Below are positions 14,298 to 62,384 of a stretch of 64,000 bases of DNA, one piece after another (position 1 is the first letter of the stretch; each line of letters opens with the position of its first letter). A program made the position numbers and the translations under genes. The notes under the pieces are model-generated. The model was not told where the DNA came from, searched no databases, and saw only the letters and a program-made list of their open reading frames with translations. The DNA comes from Grammothele lineata (Eukaryota; Basidiomycota; Agaricomycetes; Polyporales; Polyporaceae), in NCBI GenBank assembly GCA_002150815.3, contig NDFF03000004.1, forward strand, positions 1 through 64,000, in the 5' to 3' direction.

Positions 14298-14870
14298 CGG
14301 TGGTCTTCGGGATGGCTTGTAAGTATCCGCGGTACGCTTTGTCGCCTGTACGCCTGGATCTGAAACTCGCGCGAAGGACTCCAAAGGTTTCAGATATCGC
14401 ATGGCCGGGCGGCGACGACGACGCCTACAACGGCTCCATTGGGACTCATTGGCGTATCATTGAAGGTATGTGCGTGCGGGGCCGCCCGAAGGGTCCAACC
14501 TTGACTGACAGCTTGTAGTCACCAGAACTACAACATGCTCGCCAGGAGAATTGAAAACTTTGAGGATGGCACTGTGTGGATGGGCAATGATAGACGGACG
14601 GCGGAGTTCTGCTATGGAGGAGCTTCAAGGAGGATGGGTGGCGGTCTTCGGGACTGCCTGCACATATTCAAGGTGCGCTTCGGGACTTGCATGTCTGAAA
14701 CTCGCGTGAAGAGCTCCAGCGATTCCAGACATCGTCCCCGCGGTCAGCGACGACGACGCTTACGACGGCTCCATTGGGACTCGTTGGCGCATTGTTGAAG
14801 GTACGTGCCCGCGCTGGGAGTGTACAGCTCGTGACATATTGCGGTTCCCAGAGCTGCAAACTGCTCGCGG
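14298..14870. repeat. imperfect tandem duplication inside the LTR element
   Basis: Two units about 340 bp apart share blocks such as GGCGGTCTTCGGGA-type starts, CTGAAACTCGCG and CGACGACGACGC followed by ACGGCTCCATTGGGACT. The right unit covers the 3' end of the ORF, the left unit lies beyond its stop. Divergence between the units is far larger than between the LTRs, so the duplication predates this insertion. Confidence 0.75.
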
Positions 14871-16867
14871 AACGGGCTGAGGACTCCGAGGACGGTGCTG
14901 CATGCGGAGGATAGGATATTGATGGATTGCAGAGAAGTTCTGCGCTGTAACTCGAAGGGCTCGCGGCGATGGCCGTTCATCATGGGCAGAGATGAACGCC
15001 TCGAAGAGCATTTGTCTCCAGGTTCAGCGTCTTCTCGGTGAGTGGCCAACCTTGCTATTTCTAGATGAACTGCCAAGTCCGTATCTCCCAAGGCCGTGGT
15101 CGCTACTACGGTCGCTGTAGGCTTGCGCCTTTCCCCTATGTGGGTAGCAACTTCTGAAAACTTGGCTTCCAGGATTCCGTAGCGCCGCTTCAAGACTAGA
15201 TCTTCGCTTGTAGTCGAAATTGGGTAGGTGCTCCCTTTTTCGTTGAGGCGTCCATTGTCCATCGAGTCTTGCGGTTCTGCGCCCACCCAGATGCATCCCT
15301 GTCGGAGCGTCGTGTACCCTTCGCCTTCAACAATCTCGGACTCGGATAGCAAGTTACCGGTTGCGATTTGCACTGACTCTCCTCCCCCAGTCTTGAAGAC
15401 GACGTTGGACGGGGTGTGAATTATGCCAGTAACGTCTCCGATACAGCTTGGCGCGGCGTCGTCCAGCGTCTTCTGAGAGACTAAGACTGCGCTGTCCGAG
15501 TCTGCGTTGCCACTCTCGTTGGCGAATGATGACTCGATTTCATGGTGTGTCCGATCTTCGCGCTCTTCATCAGCGTGCGCTGTACTCATTTGCGGGCTTC
15601 CACTGGGATCTAGCGAAATCTCTCCTGGACCCGGGCCTGGATGCTCTTCGGGAAGTGGCGCGTTCTGGCCTTCTAGTGCGGTGTGTGCCCCTCTGCCGTG
15701 AAGGCTCACGCAGTCTACGTTTTTGGCGGTGGAGTCGCGCTCCTTTGGCAAGGACTCGGCTACAGCTTTGGCGATCGACCTGATTTGGGCGGTTTCAGCA
15801 TCAGGACGCTGAGAAGGTAGATCGGGTGGAGGCGCAATTGTACGAGTCGACTTGTGCAGAGTCCCTTTTTGTAGTATGTCGGGACACTGTCCTTTGAATC
15901 CAGCATATGGCGTTGCAAGAGGAAGGATCGTTGTTGGGTACGGCGGCGACCCGAGAGAGTGCTTCTCAGGGGCTCGCCTGGGCCTCTGAAAACCTATGCC
16001 GATCGACTTCGTATTCTTTGCATACGAACTTTGCTCATGCACGGCTTGCCGCTGAGATGCGTGTAACACCGGAGCGGCCGGTCTTTGTCGATTAACGTGC
16101 GGTGGGACTTCGGGACGAAATTCCGGAAGTGTGTCGCCTTCTTCCCAGAATGCGTCGCGCTCGAACATGTGCTCAGATCCTAGTGCTTGCAAGAAACCTT
16201 CCACTTCATGCTTGAAGCATGCGGCGAGTATTTCGTAGTCGTTCGCATCGTACATACGTTGAGATGACATGAGATCGCTTCCCCAGATCGGGGCGGAGGG
16301 CAATGGTCTCCTATTCCTTCGGAAGGTCGCTGCTGCAAGGTATCTGCGTCCCTCCAACAGGTCTCGCAGCGCTTCAAGCTCGTCTCCATCAGGCCAATAG
16401 AGCTGTGGGGCTCCGGGGATGACTGCCGAGTACGGCCTGAGTATCACACGCTGAAGGATGTGCATCTCAAGACCGAAGACGCTCTTCTCGAGATCAGAGC
16501 GTAGTTGTCTCCGAGATGACCAGAGTAGGGAAGCGCGTTTGGTAAATTGATGACCGTACTTGAGCGCGTCGGAGAGTCGGGATTGTAGATACTCATCTCG
16601 CAGGACATCTTCTATGGGTCCTAGAATCGAACCGGCACTACAGAGCTCGATTCGGTCGGCGTCTCCAAGTGCGCTCGATGGGACACCATTGTCGGACGGA
16701 ATTGGGGTGAAGCGAAGGGAGATGTCTCGTAACTCGGTGGCGATGCCACCTATTCCAACGCGTGGAAGACAAACTTGCGGAATGTTGACTCTGAGAAGTG
16801 CCATTGCCGTGGGGTGACAAGACCCTCGTACTCCAGTGAGACGGGGTGCAGTGCACTGAGGACACAT
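14744..16867 (-). CDS. unknown 707-residue ORF of the LTR element
   Basis: A single uninterrupted minus-strand frame fills most of the element's interior. It runs open from the end of the 5' LTR; the first ATG is at 16867 (707 residues) and a second at 16804 (686 residues) begins MALLRVNIPQVCLP. The N-terminal 200 residues look globular (ELRDISLRFTPIP, EYLQSRLSDALKYGHQ, LQRVILRPYSAVIPGAP). The middle is low-complexity, rich in Pro/Ser/Glu and probably disordered. The C-terminal part has short hydrophobic stretches and ends in a basic cluster RRKRRRR. No retroviral Gag zinc knuckle, protease, RT or integrase motif is seen. It could be a diverged Gag-like structural protein or a captured host gene; I cannot decide. 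An intact frame in a young element suggests it is needed or only recently lost its need. Confidence 0.7.
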   Translation of the reverse strand: MCPQCTAPRLTGVRGSCHPTAMALLRVNIPQVCLPRVGIGGIATELRDISLRFTPIPSDNGVPSSALGDADRIELCSAGSILGPIEDVLRDEYLQSRLSDALKYGHQFTKRASLLWSSRRQLRSDLEKSVFGLEMHILQRVILRPYSAVIPGAPQLYWPDGDELEALRDLLEGRRYLAAATFRRNRRPLPSAPIWGSDLMSSQRMYDANDYEILAACFKHEVEGFLQALGSEHMFERDAFWEEGDTLPEFRPEVPPHVNRQRPAAPVLHASQRQAVHEQSSYAKNTKSIGIGFQRPRRAPEKHSLGSPPYPTTILPLATPYAGFKGQCPDILQKGTLHKSTRTIAPPPDLPSQRPDAETAQIRSIAKAVAESLPKERDSTAKNVDCVSLHGRGAHTALEGQNAPLPEEHPGPGPGEISLDPSGSPQMSTAHADEEREDRTHHEIESSFANESGNADSDSAVLVSQKTLDDAAPSCIGDVTGIIHTPSNVVFKTGGGESVQIATGNLLSESEIVEGEGYTTLRQGCIWVGAEPQDSMDNGRLNEKGSTYPISTTSEDLVLKRRYGILEAKFSEVATHIGERRKPTATVVATTALGDTDLAVHLEIARLATHREDAEPGDKCSSRRSSLPMMNGHRREPFELQRRTSLQSINILSSACSTVLGVLSPFREQFAALGTAICHELYTPSAGTYLQQCANESQWSRRKRRRR

Positions 16868-16961
16868 ATTGGGTTGGAAAGGAATTGAGAATATATTGAA
16901 TTGATTTGGAAGAACGTCCGAGTGACCCTCTTTGTTCGCAAACGCGCGGAAGAGGTTCCCG

Positions 16962-16974
16962 GACGTGTCCACCA
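16962..16974 (-). other. primer-binding-site-like sequence
   Basis: On the minus strand TGGTGGACACGTC begins two bases after the 5' LTR. A PBS begins with TGG, the complement of the tRNA CCA end. I could not match it to a particular tRNA. Confidence 0.55.
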
Positions 16975-16976
16975 AT

Positions 16977-17347
16977 TGTTAAGAAACAGGTCCGCGCGAG
17001 TGGCTCTCGCGGGGAACCTCCTTCCGTTGCTTCGCGTTCGCGACGTTGGAGCGCACGCGCGCGCTGGACTTGGAGCGTGTCCGACTAGGACTTCAGCTCG
17101 GTGTCCGTCAATTGCACCGTTCCGACGGTACAAGTGGCGCGGGAGTGGCTCAGACGTTCAGACAGGATGTGGCACGAGTAGTAGTAGGCTTGATTGAGAG
17201 AGTGTAGGTACCTGTGAATATATACATGCGTGCGGAGTTTTGAGAGCGAGAGGTAGACAAAGAGAACAAAGGAGACCGGGGAACAATTTCCATGAGGCGT
17301 GAGGCTATTCTACGATACCGGCCCGAAATCAATCTCGTCACATGACA
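16977..17347 (-). repeat. 5' LTR
   Basis: 371-bp partner of 13818-14188. On the minus strand it begins TGTCATGTGACG and ends CTTAACA. It contains a TATATAT about 123 bp from its 5' end, a plausible U3 promoter. Confidence 0.92.
17218..17224 (-). promoter_or_regulatory. TATA-like box in the 5' LTR
   Basis: TATATAT on the minus strand, 123 bp inside the 5' LTR and upstream of the internal ORF. It is a likely core promoter for the element transcript. Confidence 0.5.
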
Positions 17348-45374: not shown

Positions 45375-46511
45375 ATGGCTCGGAAGAGAACTCCCAAGGC
45401 TCAGGTGTGTTCCCTTCATACCCTAACCCAGCCCCGCCGTCCTCACCTCGCGTTCTTAGAAGATATTCGTGTGCCCGGTATGCCATAAGAAGATCTCAGC
45501 TAGGAGCAAAAGCAAACACGAGCGGATTCATGTTCCCAACAAAGCCGAGCGGTACTGTTGCCCTAGTCGTATACGTGGTGGTTATCAACGTGCTGACCCC
45601 CCTCCTCCGCGCGGACAGTTCCTTCAGATGCGCCTGGCCAGGTTGTGCCCACACCAGCCTGCAGAGTACCAACGTCGTCCAACATTATCTGAGCGTCCAG
45701 TGAGCTCGCCCGTCGTTATCCCCCGCACGCTCCCACGTTGACCGCTGACCACACCGTCACCCCCCTTCCTCCCCTTGTTCCCAGCGAGAAGCAGCGGCCG
45801 TTTTTGTGCAAGGTTCCTAAGAACCCCAAAGAGCTGTGCACGTACGCCGGCGCGAGCAAGGCCTGCGTCGAGAGACACCAGCTGCGAAAGCACAAGCTCC
45901 CGAACGGCGGCCCCTGGGAAGGCCCTGAGGGCCGGCCGTTAAGCACGTATACGCATTGCTATCGATATTCTGAAAGAATCGAGTCGCTTGCACAGAAGAT
46001 CATGTCGGAGCAGTCTCGGGACCTGCCTGACGTGCCGACTGCTGCCGAACCTGCCGAACCTGCCATCGTTGAAGAGGAAGATGTGCACGAGGACGATGTC
46101 GACGAGAACAACGTTGATGTGCCGGCCGCTGAGTGTTCAACCGCTTCTCCTACCCTTGTTCAAGACGAAGATGCTATGGACGTCGACTTGGACGGGTGCG
46201 AAGTTGACGACGACGCCGCCGATGGTTACACCGACAATGGCTGCTACGACGACGATCCCTACGAGGACGAGGACGCCGACGCCGCCGACGACGACGACTC
46301 CTACGGCGACTATGAAGAAGACTATGGCGACCGCTATGATAGCAAATACGACTACGCGACGACTCTCCCTGGCACTTCTGCAGGCTTCCCCCGCCCTCTG
46401 CCGGCGTTCCTCCATCCCTCGGAGTCCAACTCTGCGCTCTTCTTTTCCGACGCGCTCTCGCACCAGTGGTCTTATCCAATCTCGAACCTCAGGGAAACCC
46501 CAATGCACTAG
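45375..46511 (+). CDS. three-finger C2H2 protein Z1
   Basis: Four exons, 45375-45404, 45460-45551, 45619-45699 and 45785-46511, give 309 residues. Finger 1 (exon 2) is FVCPVCHKKI...KHERIH, C-x2-C-x11-H-x3-H. Finger 2 (exon 3) is FRCAWPGCAH...VVQHYLSVH, C-x4-C-x12-H-x4-H; its last His codon is split CA|C by intron 3. Finger 3 opens exon 4: FLCKVPKNPKELC...VERHQLRKH, C-x9-C-x12-H-x4-H. Then comes a conserved GPWEGPEG-type linker and a long very acidic, Asp/Tyr-rich tail (DDDPYEDEDADAADDDDSY). The acidic tail after DNA-binding-type fingers would suit a transcription factor, which is an inference. I do not recognise the family. Z2-Z5 share exon layout, intron phases and the three-finger order. 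Confidence 0.85.
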
Positions 46512-47354
46512 GCCGATCGGCCGATCGACACATCTGCATCCGCGGCGGCTCGCTCAGGGGGCGGGTCCGAGCACCCAGTCTGTTCGATTTCGATTTCGAA
46601 GTTCATGTGTACTACGTTTGCTTGTTTGCTTGTATGCTTGTATGTTTGTTTGTTTCTGGTGACGCCACTGTCCCAGCATGTAGCGGTATTGTGACGTGAA
46701 TCATATGTGTATTCTTTCGAGTCTCGAGAACGCGTGTGACATGAAAAACACTGGCCTGAAGGGAAAGAGCGCTGAGAGTCGCGTTACTCGGCAGTGACGA
46801 CATAAAGTAACGGCGTGACAGAGTCGTTGCCACAACGGCGGCGCCTCGAGGCTCGAGGCTTCGGAATCGCCATAGCCTGAGCTTGCGCTTCGACCACAAA
46901 TCCTTCAGGCGACCACCACGAACCCATTGTCCTTGTCTTCCATCCCAGGTGCTTGTCTGCGAGACCCACCACGCGGTAATCATTTCGCCAGAACGAGCCA
47001 ACGACGAAGCTCCTCGAGGCTATGCGATTGTCCCCGAGGCTCGAAGAATGCACCGCCGATGCGGGCCGTCGCTGGGCTTTACTTGCCATGGTGAGCGTGC
47101 TGTCGGCGTTGAGGTTTTTGTTCCTTGTGTTTGTGCGGTACCGGTTTGCCTGAAAGGACGAGTGCTGCGTCGGAAGAGTCAAAACTGCCCACGTATGCGG
47201 GCTGGCGGCCTACCAGTGGAACGTCGTTATGTGGTCCATGCGTGCGCGTCCCAATTCCCTCTTCCGTCCCAATTCGTAATGAAAGCTAACAGGTTCCCCA
47301 GGAATACAGTTTATATGGTAGATGGATCGAGTCACGCTTCGCGTGTCCCTGCAG
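46512..47354. other. intergenic between Z1 and Z2
   Basis: A TTTG/CTTG-type simple repeat covers about 46616-46656. Overlapping open frames (minus 46784-47182, plus 46883-47359) are longer than average but lack a good start or any domain, so they are not called. Confidence 0.5.
46616..46656. repeat. TTTG/CTTG-rich simple repeat
   Basis: Tandem tetranucleotides GTTTG, CTTG and TATG in the 3' flank of Z1. Confidence 0.75.
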
Positions 47355-47361
47355 TATAAAG
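47355..47361 (+). promoter_or_regulatory. TATA box of Z2
   Basis: TATAAAG 114 bp upstream of the Z2 start codon. Confidence 0.55.
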
Positions 47362-47468
47362 GTAGGTGGCGTCGCGTAGAACGTCCCTGTATTGACCCAT
47401 CTTCCACTCCTCGAAGCACTAGAGCTCAACACCGTACACTTCAACAAATCCAGTGCTTGATACTATCG

Positions 47469-48511
47469 ATGGTCCGCAACGCGAGCGAAAGGGTATGTCT
47501 AGCTTTCGAATTTGAGCGAAGAAATGATCCCTCTCACCTTGTGATCGTAGGAGAGGCACGGCCCTGGCCGTAAAGCCAGTTCATCCCTCAAGCCCGCACT
47601 CAAACCCAAGGCCGCCGGCCCTTCGCTGTTACGCGCGATGGTACCTCCTGCACCTAAAGCTAAACCGAAGCCAAAGCCCTGGCCCCGCGATCATACGGCA
47701 CACGACACAGACCCGGACAGTGACAAAGACAAGTGAGAGCACCACGCCTCTGTCCGCCCTTGGTCGTTCGTGTCACTGACTCGCTGATTGGCATCTACAG
47801 GTTCGACTGCAGGTGCTGTGGCTTCAGGACGCGTTGGAAAATATCGGTAGTGGAGCACATCCTGATAGTGCAGTACGTCGCCTTTGCTTCGTTCTCACCA
47901 ACCGCCACGCTAGGCTACTGACAAAGGATCCTAGCATGAGGCAGCTCCCGTATCAGTGTGGGTGGCACGATCCTCCACCCAAACGCTCCCGGTGCCAATA
48001 CGTCTCGAACAATGTCGAAGACCTCACGCAGCACCAGTTGAGGGACCACAACCTCTGGGAGACCAATATCGAATATAGGTCTGACCTCTTCGACAACATC
48101 GATAGGTACGCTCCTTACTTCACAGAGCTCGAGGTCGATGAATCGGCGGCCCCAAGAGCCGTACCTAGGCCGAGGATGCAGATTCCGGAACGTATCGGGA
48201 CGATGTGGCCTCGATCGAATCAGGAGCCTCAGCCATTCCTGCCATCTACTGGTCCCTCGGGCTCGTACCGCGCTGCACCACCCGCCACCGGACCCCGCAA
48301 TCTATACTATCCTACGTCACAGGCTAGTTTCCCCGCCACCAACGCACCTCTAGCCTCTTCTTCCTCTCACGCTTCTTCTGCTGGGCCAGTATATGGTACA
48401 CCTCATCCGAGCTCGTCGCAGCTTCCTACATGGCCGGCGCAGTGGACGGCGCCAGGGCAACCGGTTTGGCAGCCTCAGCCTCAACAGCCGCCACCGTGGC
48501 GCCCCTGGTAA
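47469..48511 (+). CDS. two-finger C2H2 protein Z2 (finger 1 replaced)
   Basis: Four exons, 47469-47492, 47551-47732, 47801-47872 and 47935-48511, give 284 residues. Exon 2 does not encode finger 1; instead there is a Lys/Pro-rich segment (PPAPKAKPKPKPWPRDH). Finger 2 is FDCRCCGFRT...VVEHILIVH, a classical C-x2-C-x12-H-x4-H, again with the last His codon split CA|C by intron 3. Finger 3 is YQCGWHDPPPKRSRC...LTQHQLRDH, C-x11-C-x12-H-x4-H. The tail is Ser/Pro/Gln-rich and ends QPQQPPPWRPW. Intron phases (0, 2, 2) equal those of Z1 and Z3-Z5, so it is a family member that lost or never had finger 1. Confidence 0.8.
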
Positions 48512-49743
48512 GAGTCGCCTTCGCCCCGTCGTCGTGGTTCCACAGTGCGTCTACATGGGTCCGGAATGTTGGCGACAAGCCTTCGACCTTTGATGGACAC
48601 TGGACATTCTAAGCTTCGGACACGCGTCCGGATAGTATACCCATCCTTCTTCCTTAATCTCACCTTGTATCATACTCTTGAATGTGTCTATGCCTGTATG
48701 CCTTCATGTACATTTCGCTACCTATGCGATGCCGTTTATAAAAAGCTTCCTCTCAATGTTAATGATCTCGTCGCACTATGAGAATCGACTTCGAAGTGTC
48801 TCTTGAAGGTGAAGGAGATTTAGAATTTCAAACGCCGCCATCTGTTTTGTTGAATATAACAGCGGAGTGACTCGGAGTTTGAACTGAACAGTACGTAAGT
48901 CTTCAACTCATGCGCTTGATTATGAACACCCTCGTCCGCAAATTCGATTTTCTTTCATACGCATATCGCACCTCGTCTCTGAATGTTGGTTATGTCTGGA
49001 CTAGACCCATTCAAGCTTGAAATCCAGCCCCACTCAACTTGAAGCCGAAGGAACGAGGCGCGCTACGGGATCTCTGACGATCTTCCAACGCGCTGATGCG
49101 TTGGAAGCTGCCAGGGTCACTAGGATTTCGACCGTGGCGGTTCGCGGCCCATTACACAGCCTACGACAAAGAACTTGTGCTACATGGGCCTCAGCGTTGG
49201 AATAAACATTTGCTTCTACGCCCCAGGTCATTTCCAATGCACCCCTTGGTGCTGCGCTCGTTGAGGCGTACAAGATCCGGATACGTTTGGGAGGCGCAAC
49301 GGCAGCTGTCATGCTCGTGGTCTCCGGATTCATGGCGTACTGGCCCAATTGGTGAGCCCTAACCATGTCATTACTACTCTCTGTTCCCCCGACTATTTGC
49401 CTCGCCACGTTCTTGATACGTGGACGTGCGCCGCATCATAACTATTGTTCTCGCAGAAAGCCTGGCACTCGATTGAGGACTGTGAACGACAGCTCCCTAT
49501 TCGTCAAGCCAGCCTTTTCACGATATACCATGCTATTCGCCGCTCGATTGAAGTGCTGTATCCATTCAAAACTAGCAAGGTTGTGGCGGGGCGAGGCGCT
49601 ACCACAAAGCGACTCCTCTGCAGGACCTGATTTGTGGGTGCTCCTAGCAACATCGCCTCTTGGCCACACGAACGGCATTTGCGGCTCATTCGAAAGAGAT
49701 GAACGAGGCGCTAGCCAGAACATATTTCTACGCATTCAGGAGC

Positions 49744-49750
49744 TATAAAT
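49744..49750 (+). promoter_or_regulatory. TATA box of Z3
   Basis: TATAAAT 88 bp upstream of the ATG; unit 2 has TATAAAG at the matching place, 87 bp upstream of Z4. Confidence 0.65.
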
Positions 49751-49831
49751 CCGGAAGAGACGTACGTTGAGAGCCGAACCACCCCGTCTACCTACTCGTA
49801 GAGGTCCGAGCCCCTTTGATTTTCTCGAAGC

Positions 49832-51040
49832 ATGGAGCGTATCGACGAGCCTTCGACGCAGGATCGGGTGGTGAGCATATATCCGAATCTCCATGGCCAC
49901 GTCACTTAGATTCCTCACAGATGCAACAATGCAGTGCTTGTGGCAAGCTGTTACGGCCCAGCAGTCTCCCAAGCCATATGAGAGCATTTCATGGGTCTGG
50001 AGACGCGATGTACGTGGGATCTCCATCGTCGTTCTGGGCGTCTCCTACTAACTGAGCAGTTTGGTTCCGTAGGAAACTCCAATGCTCGTGGTCAGGATGT
50101 GAGCGGCAATCTTATGATAGATCCGCTCTGGTTTGTCACTACATACGCGTCCAGTATGTGAACGTCTTCGCTTTCAAGTCGTTTATTCTGACTAATCGTC
50201 CTCTCGTGTAGCTTCAAGAAGGACCCTTACCGATGCGCCTGTACCGTTACATCTCCGTCGGGGGCTACCGTCAAATGCACTTTCTCTGGAATCACTCGCG
50301 AAAGAATACGCTCGCATCAGTATCGAGTCCATGGTGTCTACAAGGGCCGGGTAGAAACCATCTTTGCGGGCGAAACTACTCGGCGATACCGTTCGTGTTA
50401 TAAAGTCATCCCGAGTACTGACGTCTCTCCGAGGCCCAGTCAGCCCCGTTCTTCAACCGTCGAGCCTCGGGCAGAGACCCCTATAGACAACACCCATCTC
50501 TCACCCTCACCCGACGAGTTAGACCAAAGCTCTAACATGACCTCAGCCGCTGTTGAACACTACGACGACGTACCGTCCGACTACGCTCCCCAAGCAATCA
50601 CTTCTACCACTGTCAATCAACAGACGTCATTGACCGCCACATCTTCGAATGTCTATCGCTTCGGCGTCGGTTTCTCCTCTACAGCGTCCACAGGCTTGCA
50701 CACCTCTCGGTCCGTCCCATCGGAAATAGAGGGCGCCTTCTACTCCTCTCTAGTATCTGACCCGCCGTCGAGCTTGACGTTCTCCGATCCACAAGCATCC
50801 ACTTCTGTTGTTGGGACTTCACAGTGGGCGTATCCGGCTTCAAATTCTGTCCATCCCGCGTCCCCGCAATCTCAGCCACTACCCACGGAGCTACGGATCG
50901 AGTTCCAGGACATACAACCAGCGCCCCAACAAGCTTACCTATCACAGATCCAGCAAATAGCCCTTCACCATGCTCGGCGTCTCGAGTTCTTGGCTCGGCA
51001 GACTCGATGGTATTCTCAACAGCCTCCGTACACGCAGTAG
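49832..51040 (+). CDS. three-finger C2H2 protein Z3, C-terminally shortened
   Basis: Four exons, 49832-49870, 49921-50009, 50073-50153 and 50212-51040, give 345 residues. Finger 1 QCSACGKLLRP...SHMRAFH is C-x2-C-x11-H-x4-H. Finger 2 LQCSWSGCERQ...VCHYIRVH is C-x4-C-x12-H-x4-H with the last His split CA|C. Finger 3 is YRCACTVTSPSGATVKC...RSHQYRVH, C-x11-C-x12-H-x4-H. Conserved ETIFAGETTRRYRSCYKV follows. The tail is Ser/Thr/Gln-rich and ends EFLARQTRWYSQQPPYTQ. Compared with Z4 the stop (TAG at 51038-51040) comes early: the same frame beyond it still encodes PCSEQSPYFQETMY, matching Z4. The fingers are intact, so the protein may still function. Confidence 0.85.
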
Positions 51041-51208
51041 TCGCCTTGCTCGGAGCAATCACCATACTTCCAGGAAACGATGTATAATGAAGAAACACCA
51101 CGACAACAAACTCTGCCCTATGGTGATAGCTTGACCGGCAGTCATGATTCGATTACCACTCAACACAGTGATGAGGGACCGTTTTCAGCCTATTTCTCTG
51201 CCACTTAG
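51041..51208 (+). pseudogene. former C-terminal segment of Z3 beyond an in-frame TAG
   Basis: 56 codons in the Z3 frame after its TAG, ending in a second TAG. PCSEQSPYFQETMY aligns with Z4 PCSEQLPYFPESMY. This shows the ancestral protein was longer and that a point change created the early stop. Confidence 0.7.
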
Positions 51209-52487
51209 GGGTCTCTATGTCCTGGCGAGCCTCGTATCTCCTTGAAAGCATGTCAAGCACTGGTCATTCTCCCTGTCTCTTACTACTCTGACTCTGCACT
51301 ACCTACATCTTCCCGGGCCCACATGTTGCACCCCACTGCTACGTACACTATACGTTTTACTTGTCCCTTCAACCAATGTGTTTCGCTCCGACGGACCATA
51401 GGTACGATGTGAGCAAGCCTTGAGCCGCGGCCCTGTTCCATAGGTCGGTCTGCGGCGTAACAGTCACACCGTTTATACATGACCTTCTCTCAATGTGAAT
51501 GATCCCGTGGCACTATGAGAATCGACTTCGAAATGTCTCTGGTTGTGTGAAGGAGATTTAGAATTTCAAACGCCGCCATATGTCTGGTTGATTAGGACAG
51601 CGGAGCGGAGATGAATTCGGAGTTCGAACCGGCGAGTATATGCGTTCTCTACTCAGGCGCTTGATCATGATCACTTACGGCGAACTCGCCCGCAAGTTTG
51701 ATCCTCTTTGCTATGCATATCGAAACCTATCTCTAGACATTGCCTATGACAAGAATGATCCCATCCAAATTTGAAAATCTCGCCCTACGGCCGGGTGCCC
51801 GCTCACGACGTTCATATACTCTCATAGGTCGGACAAGGGTCGGACGCCGCTGTCATGACCTGGAGGATTTCGACTGGGGCGACGTGCTACTCAGCTTACG
51901 ACAGGAAACGCTCCGTACGTACCTCGACCTTAGAGCAAATCTTTGCCTCTGCATCCCTGGTCATCCTGAGTGTACTGCTTGATGCTGCGCCCGCCGGGCA
52001 TACAAGAGACACGTTTGTGAGTCGCGATCGCACGGGCAACTGTCATTCGGATGGTTTTCTGGACTTATGGCGTACTGCCCCATTTGGTGAGCACTGACCA
52101 TCCTATTTTCACTCTCCATTCCCCTCCATTATTTGCCTCGCCATCTTGTTAATACGTAGGCGTGCGCCTTATGACGACTATTGTTCTCACAGAGAGCTTA
52201 GCACTCGTTTGAAGACCGCGCCGTGATATTTACCTCATCCGTCAAGAAAGCTTTCCCACGACGTCCTAGGCTATTCGCCGCTCGATTGAAGTGCTGCAAA
52301 GATCGAAAGTTAGCAAGCTTCTGGCAGTGCGAAGTACTACCGCAAGCCTACTCTTCTGCAGGGTCGGGTTTGTGGGTGCTCCTAGTAATTGCAACATCGC
52401 CTTTTCGCCATGCGAGCGGCATTTGCAGCTTATTCGAAAGTGGTGAACGAGGCACTAACCAGAACGTATTCCTGTCGTTCCATCAGC

Positions 52488-52494
52488 TATAAAG
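52488..52494 (+). promoter_or_regulatory. TATA box of Z4
   Basis: TATAAAG 87 bp upstream of the Z4 start codon. Confidence 0.65.
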
Positions 52495-52574
52495 CTGGAT
52501 GAGACGTCTAGGCCCCGACCATTTCGTTCGCCTACTGCTTGTTGAGTTCCGAGCTCCTTTGAATCCACCGAAGC

Positions 52575-53932
52575 ATGAAGCGTGCTATTGATGAGCCTTC
52601 GACGCATGATCGTGTGGTGAGTATATGTCTCACTCTCTGGGGCCACATCACTTAGTCAATTCCCCACAGATGCAAAAATGCAATGTTTGCGGCAAGTCGT
52701 TGCGGCCCAGCAGTCTCTGGAGCCACATGAGAGCATTACACGGGTCTGGAGATACAAGGTGCGTAGGATCTCACTCTTGGTGTTAGTGTGCATCTCCTAA
52801 TCCAGCGGTGTGATTCCGTAGGAGGCTCCAATGTTCGTGGCCCGGGTGTCAGCAGCAATCTTACGACAGATCGACATTGATATGTCACTATATGCGCGCG
52901 CAGTACGTTCGTCTCATGATTTCTCTTCGCTTTCTAGTCATTCGTTCCATCTGTCGACGTAGCCTCAAGAAAAACCCTTTCCGATGTGCCTGCACTGTCA
53001 CATCTCCGTCCGGGGCCATCGCCAAATGCACGTTTTCCGGAATGACTCGCGAAAGGATACGTACGCATCAGTTCAAAGTTCATGGTGTCTGCAATGGCCG
53101 GGTAGAGACCTCATTCGCCGGCGAAACTACTCGTCGATACCGGTCGTGTTATAAAGTCGTGCCGAGTACTGACATCTATCAGTCAAGCCAGACCCGTTCC
53201 TCTGTCGCCTCGCCTCAACCGGGGACTTCTGGAGACTACGCCCTTCACCCGCCCTCAGTGGATGAGCCATGCCAAAGCTCCAACATGGCTCCACGCGCTG
53301 TTGAGCACTACGACGAGGTACCGTCTGGTTACGCTCCACAAGCCAGCACTTCTACCACAGTCGATCAGCAGATGCCATCGGCCGCCACATCTTCGACTCG
53401 TAATGTCTACCAGTTCGGCGTCGATTCCTCCTCTACAGCATCTACAGGCTTGCACGCCCCTGAGTCCCGCTCATCTTCGATACAGACTCACGCTTTCTAC
53501 TCCTCCTCACCAGAGCCGCCGTCGAACTCGAAGCTTTCATATCCACAGGTATCTACTACCTCTGCCAGAGCGGGGGCTCCATGGACGTATTTAGCTCCGG
53601 ATTTTGGACGTCCCGCGTCCCCACAATCTCAGCCACTCCCAGCGGAGCTACGGATTGAGTCCCCGGACATACTACAACCAACAATGCAACAGGGCCTATC
53701 TCAGGTTGAGCAAATAGCCCTTCATCGTACTCGGCGTCTCGAGTTCCTGGCTCGGCAGACTCGATGGTATTCTCAACAACCGCCCGACTTGTATCAACCG
53801 CCCTGCTCGGAGCAACTGCCATACTTTCCGGAATCGATGTACCCTGAACAATCACCGCGACGACAGACCTCGCCCACAGCGTTGCAAGCTGATCAGCAGT
53901 CATCATATAACTACGACAAAGCGTTCCAGTGA
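52575..53932 (+). CDS. three-finger C2H2 protein Z4
   Basis: Four exons, 52575-52616, 52670-52758, 52822-52902 and 52963-53932, give 393 residues. Finger 1 is KCNVCGKSLRP...SHMRALH, finger 2 LQCSWPGCQQQ...ICHYMRAH (last His split CA|C), finger 3 FRCACTVTSPSGAIAKC...RTHQFKVH; spacings equal those of Z3. The conserved ETSFAGETTRRYRSCYKV follows finger 3. The tail is Ser/Thr/Gln/Pro-rich and ends ESMYPEQSPRRQTSP and then DKAFQ, the full-length version of the Z3 tail. It has no obvious nuclear localisation signal other than the basic finger region. DNA binding is inferred from the finger type. Confidence 0.87.
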
Positions 53933-54252
53933 AGAACATCAATCTAGCTCTCTGCTTCTCGAGTATCAGTATGACATGCACCCAGCTGTTCTTCCTGCCG
54001 CTCGCTGCTCTGCCCATCATGAGGCGCCTGTACTACCTACGTCTTCTGGACTCGCATGTTGCACTTCTCCGCTACGCACGCTGTACGTTTTCCTTCTCGT
54101 CGCTTCAATCAACATGTTTCGCTCCCACGAACAACGTACACGATGTGAGCGAACCCTGAGTACTGAGCGCTGAGCCGCGGCCCCGTTGTTGATCATTTTA
54201 CAGCGTAACAGTCATGCACGTCCATACCAGTCGTCAAATGTCCGAGCTCCCC

Positions 54253-57015
54253 TCACCCCAGGACCACCATCCCAACAAGCGCCGCCAAAACCGTCGCCAC
54301 CCCTACCGTCCCCGCCCCAGCCCCCACACGCACCCCCTTGCTGCTCCCGCCCGTCGTCCCGCTCGTCCCGCTACTCCCATTGCTACCGCTCCCGGACGTC
54401 GACGCGGCAGACGCGAGCAGGTCCGGGCAGTCCGGGGCGACGAGGACGTCCCCGTACTGGCTCGCGATCCAGAGCAGGGCGCCGTTCGTCCACCCGAACC
54501 CGGCCTGCACTGTGTACTCGCCGCCGCGCCCGGCGGAGTCGATGTCTGAGATGGAGAACTTTTCGAACATCTGCGCATGGTTTGATCGTGTCAGCTCGGC
54601 GGCCCCACACCTTAGAGAAAGATGGGAGAGGAGAGAGAAGACATACATTCCCCGTATTATTCACACTCTGCGTAACATTCAGCTCCTCATCCGACAACCT
54701 CGGCAGCACCCCCTCAATCTCCCCGCCCGTCGCGTGCCAGCTACACAGCGCGCTCGCGACGTACCGATTCGCGAGCGCCCTCTGGAGCGCCCTGCCCCAC
54801 CCCTCGCCCTCCGTCGCGTTGCCCCCGTTCGCCACCGTCCCGCTCGACAAGGAGTTGACGTCCGCGGAGGGCCCCGAGGTGCTGGCGTTCCGCCCTGGGG
54901 AGAGGGGTTGGGCAGGGAGGGCGTCTTCGGAGACGCCGAGCTGGCCGGAGGGGATGAGGGCGTATGTGGATTGGCCGGAGGGGGGTGTTGGGAGGGCGTT
55001 GTTGGTTACGTTGGAGGGGAGGGCGCGGAGGGCCTCGAGCGCGATGTATTGGTGTGGGGGCCAAGCGTTGGGAGCGTCCCTGTGCGTAGCACGCTATGTT
55101 AGTCATCTGTATACCGACCGATGACATGCGGAAACAGGCGCACCATTGCAGGCTAGTCTCAAGGAACGTCACAGGGAACGTCCCATTGTACCGGTTCAGA
55201 ACCATATTCAACGACGCGAAGAACCCAAACGCATTATCGCTCGACGTCGCCAACTCAGAGGGTACGATGCCGTTCCAGAGCGGGTAGAACGTCGCGGCGG
55301 AGAAGATGTCGCTGCGCGCGTTGGCCGTGAGGTTGAAGTCGTAGAACGCGAGCTTTGGCACGTCCCAGAAGAGGTCGAGGACGCCCGCGCGGATCGACTC
55401 GGCCGAGGTGCGGTGCGTCTGCGCGGCGCTTGAGTTGGAGCCGTGGGTGTCGTAGAGGTCCGCGAGGAGCGAGTGCGCTTTGTCTGCGAGGGGTCAGCTT
55501 GCCGTGAGGGCGCGCATATATGGAGGTGATACGTACAGAGGATGCTGTTGAGACAGACGGGGATGACGCTGCGAACGTTGAGGGTGCGAAGCTTGGGGTT
55601 CTGGTCCGTGAGGCTGCCGGCGAGCGGCTCCTTCAGCCAACGAGAAGAGTAATCCCAGCCCGTCTCCGCGCCGGACGCGAGCTCCGCGTAGAGGTTTGAT
55701 CGTTCGCCCTCCGTGAGAGGGGTCGTCAGGGTCGGATCGTTGGCAGTAAGATAGTCTACCAGCGCCAGGTCAAACGCCGCTGCGCGGAAGAATCGAAAGA
55801 AGCGCGTACCAGTCAAGTATGACTCTGGGCGGGGAGCGGTGTTGTTGACTGCATAGTGCGCCATTGCGTAGGTTTTGTTGGAGAACGGACTGACCACGTT
55901 CAGGGTGCGGTTGTCCTTCCACCATTTGAGCTCAGCCTCGGCGAGGGGAAGAGCACGTTCGAGGATGGACGTGTCGTTACTCGCAGCTACGTAGTCGAAG
56001 AGCATCTGTTGTATGTCAGCATGCGATTCTTTGCGAATGAGGACTGCCGACCTACGTGAATGAACAGTGGAGGCTGGGACCGATTGAGGTCTGCGAGTGC
56101 ATTGATGAGTCTCGTACAGCACCGACTGATTATCAGCAACTTACAATAAATACGTCCGCCATTGGGGATGAAACCAAAGTTCTCGAGCTCATCCATGAAG
56201 TTTTGAAGGGTGTCATTGACCGTGTCGAGCAACTCGGACTGGATAAGGCCTTGGACAATCCAATACGAGTCCCAGTAGTCTATCGCACAAGTTGAGCACA
56301 TGGCGACGTACAGGAAAGTTTGAAAACGCGTACGTACACTGCTCACGGAAACGACCGCCAGGCACAACGAAGGTGTGGTTGAGAGGAATCAGCGAGCTCT
56401 CACAAGAGCCACTCTCTGTCCCTTCGGCGCATAAAGCGGAGTCATTCGTATTCCTGATGAGTTGGGTCCAGAAGCCGTGCACGGTCTGAGAGAACGCCTT
56501 GACGAGCGGGTCGGAGACATTGTTTAGGAACGCCGGTGTCGTCGTGAAGTTCGCGAGCGCCACGGCCTCCAGCTCCAAGCCCTCCCCGCGGAAGTTGGTG
56601 TCGACGAAGTCGACGACATCTCCCTCCGTCGCGCTCGAGTTGCCGATCACGTCGAACGCAGAGAGGACCTCCTGCGAGGACTTGGACGTCGGCTTGTCAA
56701 CGAACGTCTTGGGGTCCACATAGAGCTCCGCGATGTTGACCGTTTGGAGAAGCTGGCACATGTGTTCCTGTCAGGCTGCGACGCCACCGACGTCAGAAGA
56801 CTCACCTCGCCCGCACAGAAGATCTCGCTGGGGCACCAAGCTTGCTTCGGCGGTAGGGCGACTTGAGACGGGAGGCTCGAAGAGAGAGGCGCACTGGGAC
56901 TGGCCACCACGGTCGAGACGGTGATGCTCGGCGGGGCTGTCGCGGTCCCTTGAGGAAGGGCGCGCGCGACCTCGATGAGGCCGGAGGACAGTACAAGCGC
57001 AGACCAGTGGACCAT
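54253..57015 (-). CDS. GH37 trehalase, secreted and probably membrane/GPI-anchored
   Basis: Nine minus-strand exons, 57015-56806, 56752-56338, 56279-56145, 56090-56056, 56005-55810, 55755-55537, 55483-55144, 55079-54647 and 54570-54253, give 696 residues. It hydrolyses trehalose to two glucoses. A signal peptide (WSALVLSSGLIEVARA) and Ser/Thr-rich stretch precede the catalytic domain. Both family signatures are re-formed by splicing: PGGRFREQYYWDSYW (201-215) and QWDAPNAWPP (446-455). GGRIYYLNRSQPPLF, APRPESYLTDY and ASGAETGWDYSSRWL are further blocks. The C terminus has a Gly/Ser linker and ends in a hydrophobic stretch (VATVLAALVGMVVLG), as in GPI-anchored or single-span wall proteins. It is divergent from the RBM25-like gene. 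Confidence 0.93.
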
Positions 57016-57078
57016 GGTGCTTGCTCGCCGCTGAGAGGTCGCCGGTCGACGCAGGGTCGAGCACGGACGCGGGGCTCG

Positions 57079-57085
57079 TTATATA
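57079..57085 (-). promoter_or_regulatory. TATA-like box of the trehalase gene
   Basis: TATATAA on the minus strand about 65 bp upstream of the trehalase ATG. Confidence 0.5.
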
Positions 57086-57806
57086 TGCTCGCCGGATATT
57101 TTCAACATCCATCAGCTCATGACGTTCTTGGGGAACCCCTGGCGCGTTGTTGGTGCTGGAATGGTAACAGTGCGGGGTCTGCTGACCCCAGACAGATCGA
57201 GCGCCGCGTGCCAGGCGTGGTCCGACGTCGGGCCCGTCCTCCAGCGCCGCAGGCGCGTCTTGTCCCCGCTTGGCGACGAGCAGCACGCAGAATACAGCGA
57301 GGAACATACCGCCCTCCACGCACACAACGGCGCAACTGCATATCCCAGGATACACCATGCTCAACCCATCTACCCCGCGCTCAAGTCCTGGCCGCCTCTG
57401 CCCCGCACGCGCTGCAGCCAGGAAGTTTCGAGGACCTGTCCATCAATTACGGCAGCAAACGTAGACCGCTTGGGTTGCATCTGGCGAGTCGATAGGCGCA
57501 TGGATCATTAGAGAGGTCCGGTAAAGGCGAAACAAACAAAGGGCATGTGTTTTGGAGAATCGCAGGGTAAGATAAACACGAAGTGAACGTCGTCTGAGAT
57601 GGCGTTCTGTCCGACAAGCGGACGTGTCGGGATCTGAACATTTTGAGTAGTATTGCCAACTCCGAAAGAGCTCCGACGTGCAGATTGACGCTCCGCCGCC
57701 ACAGCACCGGGAAGCCTGAGCTTGGTCCCTTCGTCCCGGACTCCATCTTTTCCTTCCTCCCTAATCTCTTGCTCGACTGGTTCGTCCCCCCAGCAAGCAA
57801 GACAAT
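57086..57806. other. shared divergent promoter region, trehalase / RBM25-like
   Basis: Separates two start codons 791 bp apart. Open frames here (for example plus 57119-57511) are not supported as genes. Confidence 0.5.
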
Positions 57807-60201
57807 ATGCAGCACAACCGAATGGGAGTCGGGATGCGTCCTCCCATGCCCTCCTATGGCCAGGGCCCCTCAATATCAGCTCTCGCCGCACAACAACAAA
57901 TGCACCACGCCCCCGCATTCACACCTCCACAACCCAAGCCGACAACCCTCTTCATTGGGTCAATCTCGGGTGGAATCACGGACTCGTTCCTCAACGAAGT
58001 TTTGAAGGTGCGCACGCTCCTGCTTGTCCGAGTACGCGGGCGCGTCTCACGCTGCTGCAGGCATGTGGTCCTATCACCTCCTTCAAACGGTTGATTACTC
58101 CTGCGAACAAGCCGCAAGGGTTCGGTTTTGCCGAGTTCCAAGACCCGGATGGTGCCCTCAGAGCAATGGCCCTCTTGAATAACGTGGAGTTGCCGGCGTT
58201 AGAGGATGGCTGCGTGAACAAGAAATTGCTGGTGAGTTCCCCCCTACTCTCTCCTATGGAGCTGGCATTGATGGGATCTGTAAAGGTCAAAGCGGACGAG
58301 CGGACAAAGGTCTTCCTTGATGCATACGCGGCGCAGAAAATGCGGACAGAGGTGCGTGCCCTATCCTCAGCTCATTGGCGTTTCCATGCTGGTAGCGGCA
58401 TGTTTGGACATTCGCAATGGTCCGACTCCCTAGCCTACTCAGGTGCATAGCCTTTCATGAAGCTTATTCATGAATCTCGCCATGTACCAGGCAAGGATAG
58501 TCTTCAGACCATTCTCCGGACATGCCGCCACCCGTTATGGATCCTGATGACTACAGAGGCTCAACATGCTGTTATCCTCGTTAGGCCGACGACGAAGCGA
58601 TGCGCAAAGCAAAAGCGGCAGTTGACGCCCTCCTCGGAGACATCCACCAGAAGTCGCAAGAGGCGGCCAGCAGCGGGCTCCTGGACAGGGAGAAGTACGT
58701 TATCCCCCCGCATCTGCACGATCTGCAGGAGGCCGACCTGCCCGAAACCCAACGCGGTCTCGTTATGACCGAAATCGCGCAGTTCCGCGAGCGCGCCGCC
58801 AAGCGCGAGCGCGAGAAGATGCGCGACGTCCGCGAGCAGATGCCCAACATTCTCGCAGCTACGGCCCCTTCGGGCCCAAAGGTCCGCGAGTGGGGCAAGC
58901 CGCAGCTCCAGCCGGACTCTCCGGTCGGCGGCGGCGGCGGCAAAGGCTTTGGCAAGGGCCCGCAAGGCTACACCAAACCCGTCGGCTTCGTGAAGGCGGA
59001 GGAGGGCAGTGGGACACCTGGCTCGGACAGGCAGTCGTCGGTGCGTCCCGGGAAGACTGACGAGGAGCTGGAGCAGGAGCGAAAGGAGGTGCGGCGGCGG
59101 GACGAGGAGAACTCGTACAAGGACGTGAGTGCCCTTTTTTACTCGCCATCGTCACCCCGAGACCCATTTTCGCCACGCCACAGCGAGAACGACGGTACGA
59201 GCCCCGCGAGCGCGCACGAATACAAGCTCTAGAACGCGCCATCGGCCGCGAGCGCGCGATGAAAGAGGCCGAGGAGCGGGACAAGATCGAGATGCGCGCG
59301 CGGCTGGACGTGTGGGACGACGACGAGAGCGACGAGCCGTTCTACACGGACCGCGCGCGGTGGCGCGGCCTGCGCGCGCGGCGGCTCGCGGCGGAGCAGA
59401 CGGCGGACGAGGAGTCGCGCATGTACGAGGAGCGCGAGGCGGAGAACCTCCGGCGCGAGTCCGAGGCGTTCCTCGCGCGCCAGATGGACGAGATGCAGGC
59501 GCTCCAGGAGGAGCAGCGCAAGGCGGGGATGCTCCTGGACGATGGGGCCCCCGTCAAGCTTGCGGTCTCGCTCGCCCCGGCGCCGAAGGAGGCGGGCCCG
59601 GACAAGAAGGCGACGGTGTTTGGGCCGGAGGAGGAAGAGGAGGAGGCGGTGCGCAAGCGGAAGGTGCCCCTGCCGAAACTCGACCTCGCGGAGGGCGGCG
59701 AAAAGGCGAAGGAGCGGCTGGAGAAGATGCGTGGGGAGGTCCCGAGGGACAGGGAGACGCTCTTCAAGAGCAAGGTCCGGTGGGACGGCGTCGTGGAGGT
59801 GAGTGTTCCCCCTAGGGCGGCGAGGTGTGTGGTTTGCTTATCATGCGCCCAGACCATGATCGACCGCAAGCTCGAACCGCTCGTCAAGCGGCAGATGACG
59901 AAGTACCTCGGCGAGCTCGAAGACGACGACCTCATCATGTTCGTCCTCGAGCACCTCAAGGACCACAAGAGCCCCCAGAAGCTCGTCGAAGGGCTCGAGC
60001 CGGTGCGTGTCCTGCCGTATCTCCGCGCGCCACTGACCACACCCGAATCGTACGAGCTCGATGCTGATATCTTGACGTGCGTTACAGGTGCTCGAAGAGG
60101 AGGCGGTGGAGTTCGTCATCAGCATCTGGCGCCAGATCATCTTCGAGAGCATGGCGTACGGCGAGGGCCTGCACACGGAGCGGATGATGGTCGACGGCTG
60201 A
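57807..60201 (+). CDS. RBM25/Snu71-type splicing factor (RRM + PWI)
   Basis: Main exons 57807-58007, 58061-58231, 58286-58351, 58585-59124, 59184-59798, 59853-60002 and 60088-60201, all joined in phase 0, give 618 residues. The N-terminal RRM has RNP2 LFIGSI (48-53) and RNP1 KPQGFGFAEF (84-93). A long charged middle follows, with the Arg/Glu-rich helix of RBM25 (RERRYEPRERARIQALERA). The C terminus is a PWI domain (MIDRKLEPLVKRQMTKYLGE, then EEEAVEFVISIWRQIIFESM). This is a U1 snRNP-associated nuclear splicing factor. The 58352-58584 gap is either one 233-bp intron or two introns around a 33-nt micro-exon at 58501-58533 (SSDHSPDMPPP), which is in frame with good flanking signals; that would give 629 residues. 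Confidence 0.88.
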
Positions 60202-60427
60202 CCGCCGTCCCCCTCCCCCTCCCCTTCCTCCCCTCTCGCCTTCCCCATGCTCGGTCGATCGAAGTCTTCTTGGACGCTCATTGGGATATAGCTGACGACG
60301 GTAGCGGAGGCGGAGACGGAGGAGTCGTGTGCCTCCCGTGCTTCCCGTGCTCCCGGGGGCAGAGGTGCGTTTGCGTAGTATCGATATGCTTTTCGCTAAG
60401 ATGTACAAGACACCCGCGGTACTCTAC

Positions 60428-60814
60428 TCATGATGCTTCTGCGTTCTTCACCGTGACGTTGGCGTTTACCGGTACCGGCCGGCCGGTGCCCATACCGACG
60501 CGAGATGCGTGCGCGAGGCCTCGGCCCCAGGCGGGAGTGTCGGAGAGTTGGGCGGGAATGTGGACGTAGGTGTGGCGGGGAAGTGTCGTGAGTTGCACGT
60601 TCATCGAGCGTTTGGTTAGCACGAATGATGGTGCCCCGTTCGGCGAGCGACAGACGAGTGCCTCCCGATCCACCCACCGACAAGAGCCCCCGAACCGCGA
60701 AATATCGGTCCATTCGCTGATGAGTGCTACATACCTCTCCGCTTGTGGGATCTTTAACACGTCGTTGCGACTTGTGTGCAGGGCGTCCGTTGTTGGAGGT
60801 CTACGCGTTTTCAT
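60428..60814 (-). CDS. hypothetical 128-residue protein
   Basis: Single uninterrupted frame starting with ATG at 60814 (MKTRRPPTTDALHTS) and convergent with the RBM25-like gene. It contains SEWTDISRFGGSCRWVDRE and LPRHTYVHIPAQLSD but no recognisable domain, signal peptide or membrane segment. An intronless gene would be unusual here, so it may be spurious. Confidence 0.3.
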   Translation of the reverse strand: MKTRRPPTTDALHTSRNDVLKIPQAERYVALISEWTDISRFGGSCRWVDREALVCRSPNGAPSFVLTKRSMNVQLTTLPRHTYVHIPAQLSDTPAWGRGLAHASRVGMGTGRPVPVNANVTVKNAEAS

Positions 60815-61297
60815 GCAACGTTAGGCGTTAGTGAGGGTGTGGGCGTGCAGGTGAGTGAACTTGCTGAAGCACCGCTCATCCCCCTGTTGTGTACGCTGTA
60901 AACATCATGTTTAACGTCGCGATACGTAATGTCAAAGTATATCTATCCTTCTTTCTTCTCTTGAGGAGTTACAAGCCAACGATAGTTCAGTACGACGTCC
61001 GCCGACATAGTGTGTACCAGGGTTTCTGAGGGTGCTAAAATTGTCACCGCCGTGAGCTCGTTGTCCCTTCGCCCGCCCACATGCAGCTACCATTCGCAAA
61101 TGCCGCCGTCAATCTCTTTCACGCAAATCTCACACGGGATAGAACGAGAACTCGATGTGATACGAAACGAAAACGAATACAGATATTCGAACAAGAAAGA
61201 CAACGAAGAATATACAACACGCGCACGTGCGCAAACATCCAACAAACATCAACACATACACGCTCCAGTAGGACCAAGACCAACAGATATCCGTCAT
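60815..61297. other. intergenic
   Basis: No gene is visible; it contains the 3' flank of Z5. Confidence 0.5.
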
Positions 61298-62384
61298 TCA
61301 AGCCCGAGGATCGAGAGGGAGCGGGTCGTCCACGTCAGAGGGCGGGAGGTACGCTTCGGGCCAGCTTGCGACCATTTGACGTCTAGCGTATGTCGCCTCG
61401 AAAAGAAAGGGTCGCGGTTGAGAGCCTCCAGGAATGCCGCAGACCGTCGAGAGAGAGGGTACGCTGACCGGGGGACCAGGCAAGGTGCTTGGGGGCGGGG
61501 AAGGGGACACACGAGGGACAGAGGGGCCGGGGCGGGACTCAGAGGCTGCGAGGGTGGTCTGCTCACTGGGGGAGTCGATACGACGCTTCTTGCTCTTCCT
61601 CTTTCGTGCGGTACGGTCGGTCTTGCCGTGGAAGTTGTTGTTCTTACCGAGATCGCCATTGTCGCCAGTGTAGGAGGTAGAGCCACCAGAGGAACCGTCG
61701 CCAGAGTCGCCGACGTTGTTGTCATGAGGGCCCACGTCGCAGAGGTCACTCAAGTCGTCGAGGCAAGCCGGTAGACGTGGGGCCCCCTTCGTGACTGCGC
61801 CGTTAGCACCCGGCTCAATGTAGCACGACGTGAACTTCATGTATTTGAGTCCCACAGGGCCGCGCCATGCGCCCTCTTTCTTGTCATGGTAGCGCTGTTG
61901 ATGCTCGCGCAGGCATTGGCGAGTTGTAAACTTGTAGTCACACAGTGAGACCTCCTCGTTTGATTCAGGGGTAAGGTGTTTCTTGCACTCGAACAGTCGT
62001 ACTTTCAGACTATTGTAGGGCGAGCAGCCAGTCAGTTGCAGCCGGTCACGAAGAGGAAGGACGTGCGGGCTTACTGTCTGACGAAGTAATGCACCACCAC
62101 ATTGGTGGCATGCAAGTTGCGGTGGTCGCAACCCCGCGACGCGCACCTGAACATACTGACCACGACAAAGTCAACACGCCAGCGTTCGAAACCGCGAAGG
62201 GGAACCACAACGTTACCTATCATCCGGGTGAGGCTTGTGTTTTGTTTCCTGATGTTCCTTAAGATTGCGTGTTTGTACAGATGTTTGGCATTCGGGACAG
62301 ATCGTTCGTGGCTAGACAAGACCAGGTCTCAGAATGCTTGGACACACATCGGCACAAACAACGCACAATGTTGGGGTCGATCAT
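61298..62384 (-). CDS. three-finger C2H2 protein Z5
   Basis: Four minus-strand exons, 62384-62367, 62311-62217, 62155-62075 and 62009-61298, give 301 residues. Exon 1 codes only MIDPNI. Finger 1 is TICPECQTSVQ...KEHQETKH, C-x2-C-x11-H-x4-H. Finger 2 is FRCASRGCDHR...VVVHYFVRH, C-x4-C-x12-H-x4-H, with the last His codon split CA|T by intron 3. Finger 3 is FECKKHLTPESNEEVSLC...LREHQQRYH, C-x14-C-x12-H-x4-H. A linker GAWRGPVG parallels GPWEGPEG of Z1. The tail is Gly/Ser/Asp-rich, then has a basic nuclear-localisation-like cluster RKRKSKKRR and a Pro-rich end. It lies 7 kb from Z4, on the opposite strand, beyond the trehalase and RBM25-like genes. Confidence 0.85.

Follow-up and report, generated by a model that had tools for sequence, protein, structure and literature searches.

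In animals, zinc-finger genes of the KRAB or ZAD type occur in expanding clusters. Among other C2H2 proteins, PMC2837044 defines the tCWCH2 class by a C-x-W motif in both of two adjacent fingers, and reports long Cys-Cys loops of 4-34 residues for Zic/Gli/Glis, Zap1/ZafA and Arid2/Rsc9. Here, we analyze five zinc-finger genes, Z1-Z5, in a 64,000-nt window of Grammothele lineata (C4:1-64000; GC 57%), which lies on a 291,806-nt contig of a 41.8 Mb assembly comprising 252 contigs; the short introns, GC content and size would fit a basidiomycete. The five genes really are sister copies within one family of small zinc-finger proteins, and are positioned in the window as follows.

45375..46511, + strand: Z1, with GT..AG introns in phases 0,2,2 and TATATA at -146
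45619..45699, + strand: segment inside the Z1 span
47469..48511, + strand: Z2
49832..51040, + strand: Z3
52575..53932, + strand: Z4
49001..54210, + strand: stretch spanning Z3 and Z4, with identity of 77% upstream (786 aligned bases) and 84% downstream (257)
61298..62384, - strand: Z5, with TATATA at -127

Beyond Z1-Z5, the same genome holds four further intact copies and one broken copy. The earlier note on this DNA, which had described only the five, is confirmed in part: the family is real, but somewhat larger and more dispersed than noted. The proposed paralogy is supported, and the proposed local expansion is backed by local (tandem) duplication. In 9/9 intact genes genome-wide, finger 2 has its final His codon split by intron 3 (phase 2), a layout seen in 0/30 PF00096 loci examined. 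The putative zinc-ligand residues are conserved across the predicted fingers. That the cluster is decaying into pseudogenes, or consists of chance open frames linked through hand-picked splice sites, is highly improbable.

The working parts of the Z-family proteins are of a well-known type. At E<=0.1, profile comparison matched 109 different sequences of the PDB, the best being TFIIIA (4.4e-13), and the solved tandem C2H2 arrays of TFIIIA, YY1, GLI and REF6 resemble the family in profile across fingers 1-2 or 1-3. They also share the C-x4-C-x12-H-x4-H spacing found in finger 2 of 7/9 members, while the PF00096-type spacing, C-x2-4-C-x12-H-x3-5-H, is present in finger 2 of all nine. In contrast to these arrays, finger 1 of the family places 10-11 residues between the second Cys and the first His, and finger 3 has the form C-x9-14-C in 8/9 members. 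In the Z genes, each finger occupies its own exon, with a split His codon. Fold searches with two finger-3 models were uninformative. The suggestion that the layout is unlike any described family is not supported, since the finger 2 spacing is ordinary and a long Cys-Cys loop like that of finger 3 is already published (PMC2837044). The family does not fit the definition of tCWCH2 (Zic/Gli/Glis, PacC, Zap1/ZafA, Aebp2, Arid2/Rsc9), with Trp in both adjacent fingers in 0/9 members; moreover, the long loop lies in the last finger of the Z family, whereas in tCWCH2 it is mainly in the first.

In Pfam scans the family scores under every cut-off, in line with its description as unrecognized. Its proteins do not reach the curated PF00096 cut-off (25.2 bits), and they fall under the 27-bit cut-off of the ZN142-type C2H2 finger (PF23612), from which they differ by a long loop that displaces the first Cys. 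Standard domain models overlook the family because its members have diverged so far. On the putative lineage restriction proposed in the note, protein-database searches returned no match in a database whose coverage of such fungal proteins is not established. Among the papers listed on exon-per-finger, atypical or lineage-specific basidiomycete C2H2 families, titles and abstract openings contain no description of the layout. There is an even chance that the Z genes belong to a broad basidiomycete C2H2 group and are merely diverged here, with many annotated, unstudied orthologs in other fungi; this would bear on novelty and is compatible with a regulatory role, so that the two are not exclusive. 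Separately, PF00096 matches at 139 places genome-wide, with several each on contigs C28, C67, C75, C137 and C232.

The family proteins are probably gene switches, and the tandem C2H2 fingers predicted from sequence support the proposed transcription-factor-like character. The same fingers might instead bind RNA or a protein partner, using the enlarged finger-3 loop as the interaction surface, as the top profile match to TFIIIA, which binds both 5S DNA and RNA, and the greater variability of finger-3 loop and helix residues relative to finger 2 would allow. This alternative seems unlikely: most of the best 60 of the 109 PDB matches are DNA-binding, judged by name, and no RNA-binding partner domain exceeds its cut-off in the Pfam scans. 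A more speculative and rather less probable reading is that of an unrecognized fungal regulator family, in which finger 2 would act as a conserved anchor whose Q/N contacts prefer A; finger 3 would diversify in its helix and in the length of its loop, yielding paralogs with related but different target sites.

By Pfam scans of 30 selected open-frame pieces, the neighbors of the cluster are ordinary.

24.7-25.7 kb: proteasome subunit
43.1-43.8 kb: sulfatase
54.7-56.1 kb: trehalase pieces
57.7-58.4 kb: RRM protein

A 744-residue open frame (window 14747-16978, minus) has no Pfam match at E 0.001.

On the speculative reading as an unrecognized regulator family, the Z genes would represent a small fungal counterpart of the zinc-finger clusters of animals, one that surveys based on PF00096 would mostly miss. 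The Z family and the KRAB/ZAD clusters have in common that their genes expand locally in tandem, whereas the Z family is far smaller, carries only two or three fingers per protein, and gives no KRAB or ZAD match in Pfam scans.
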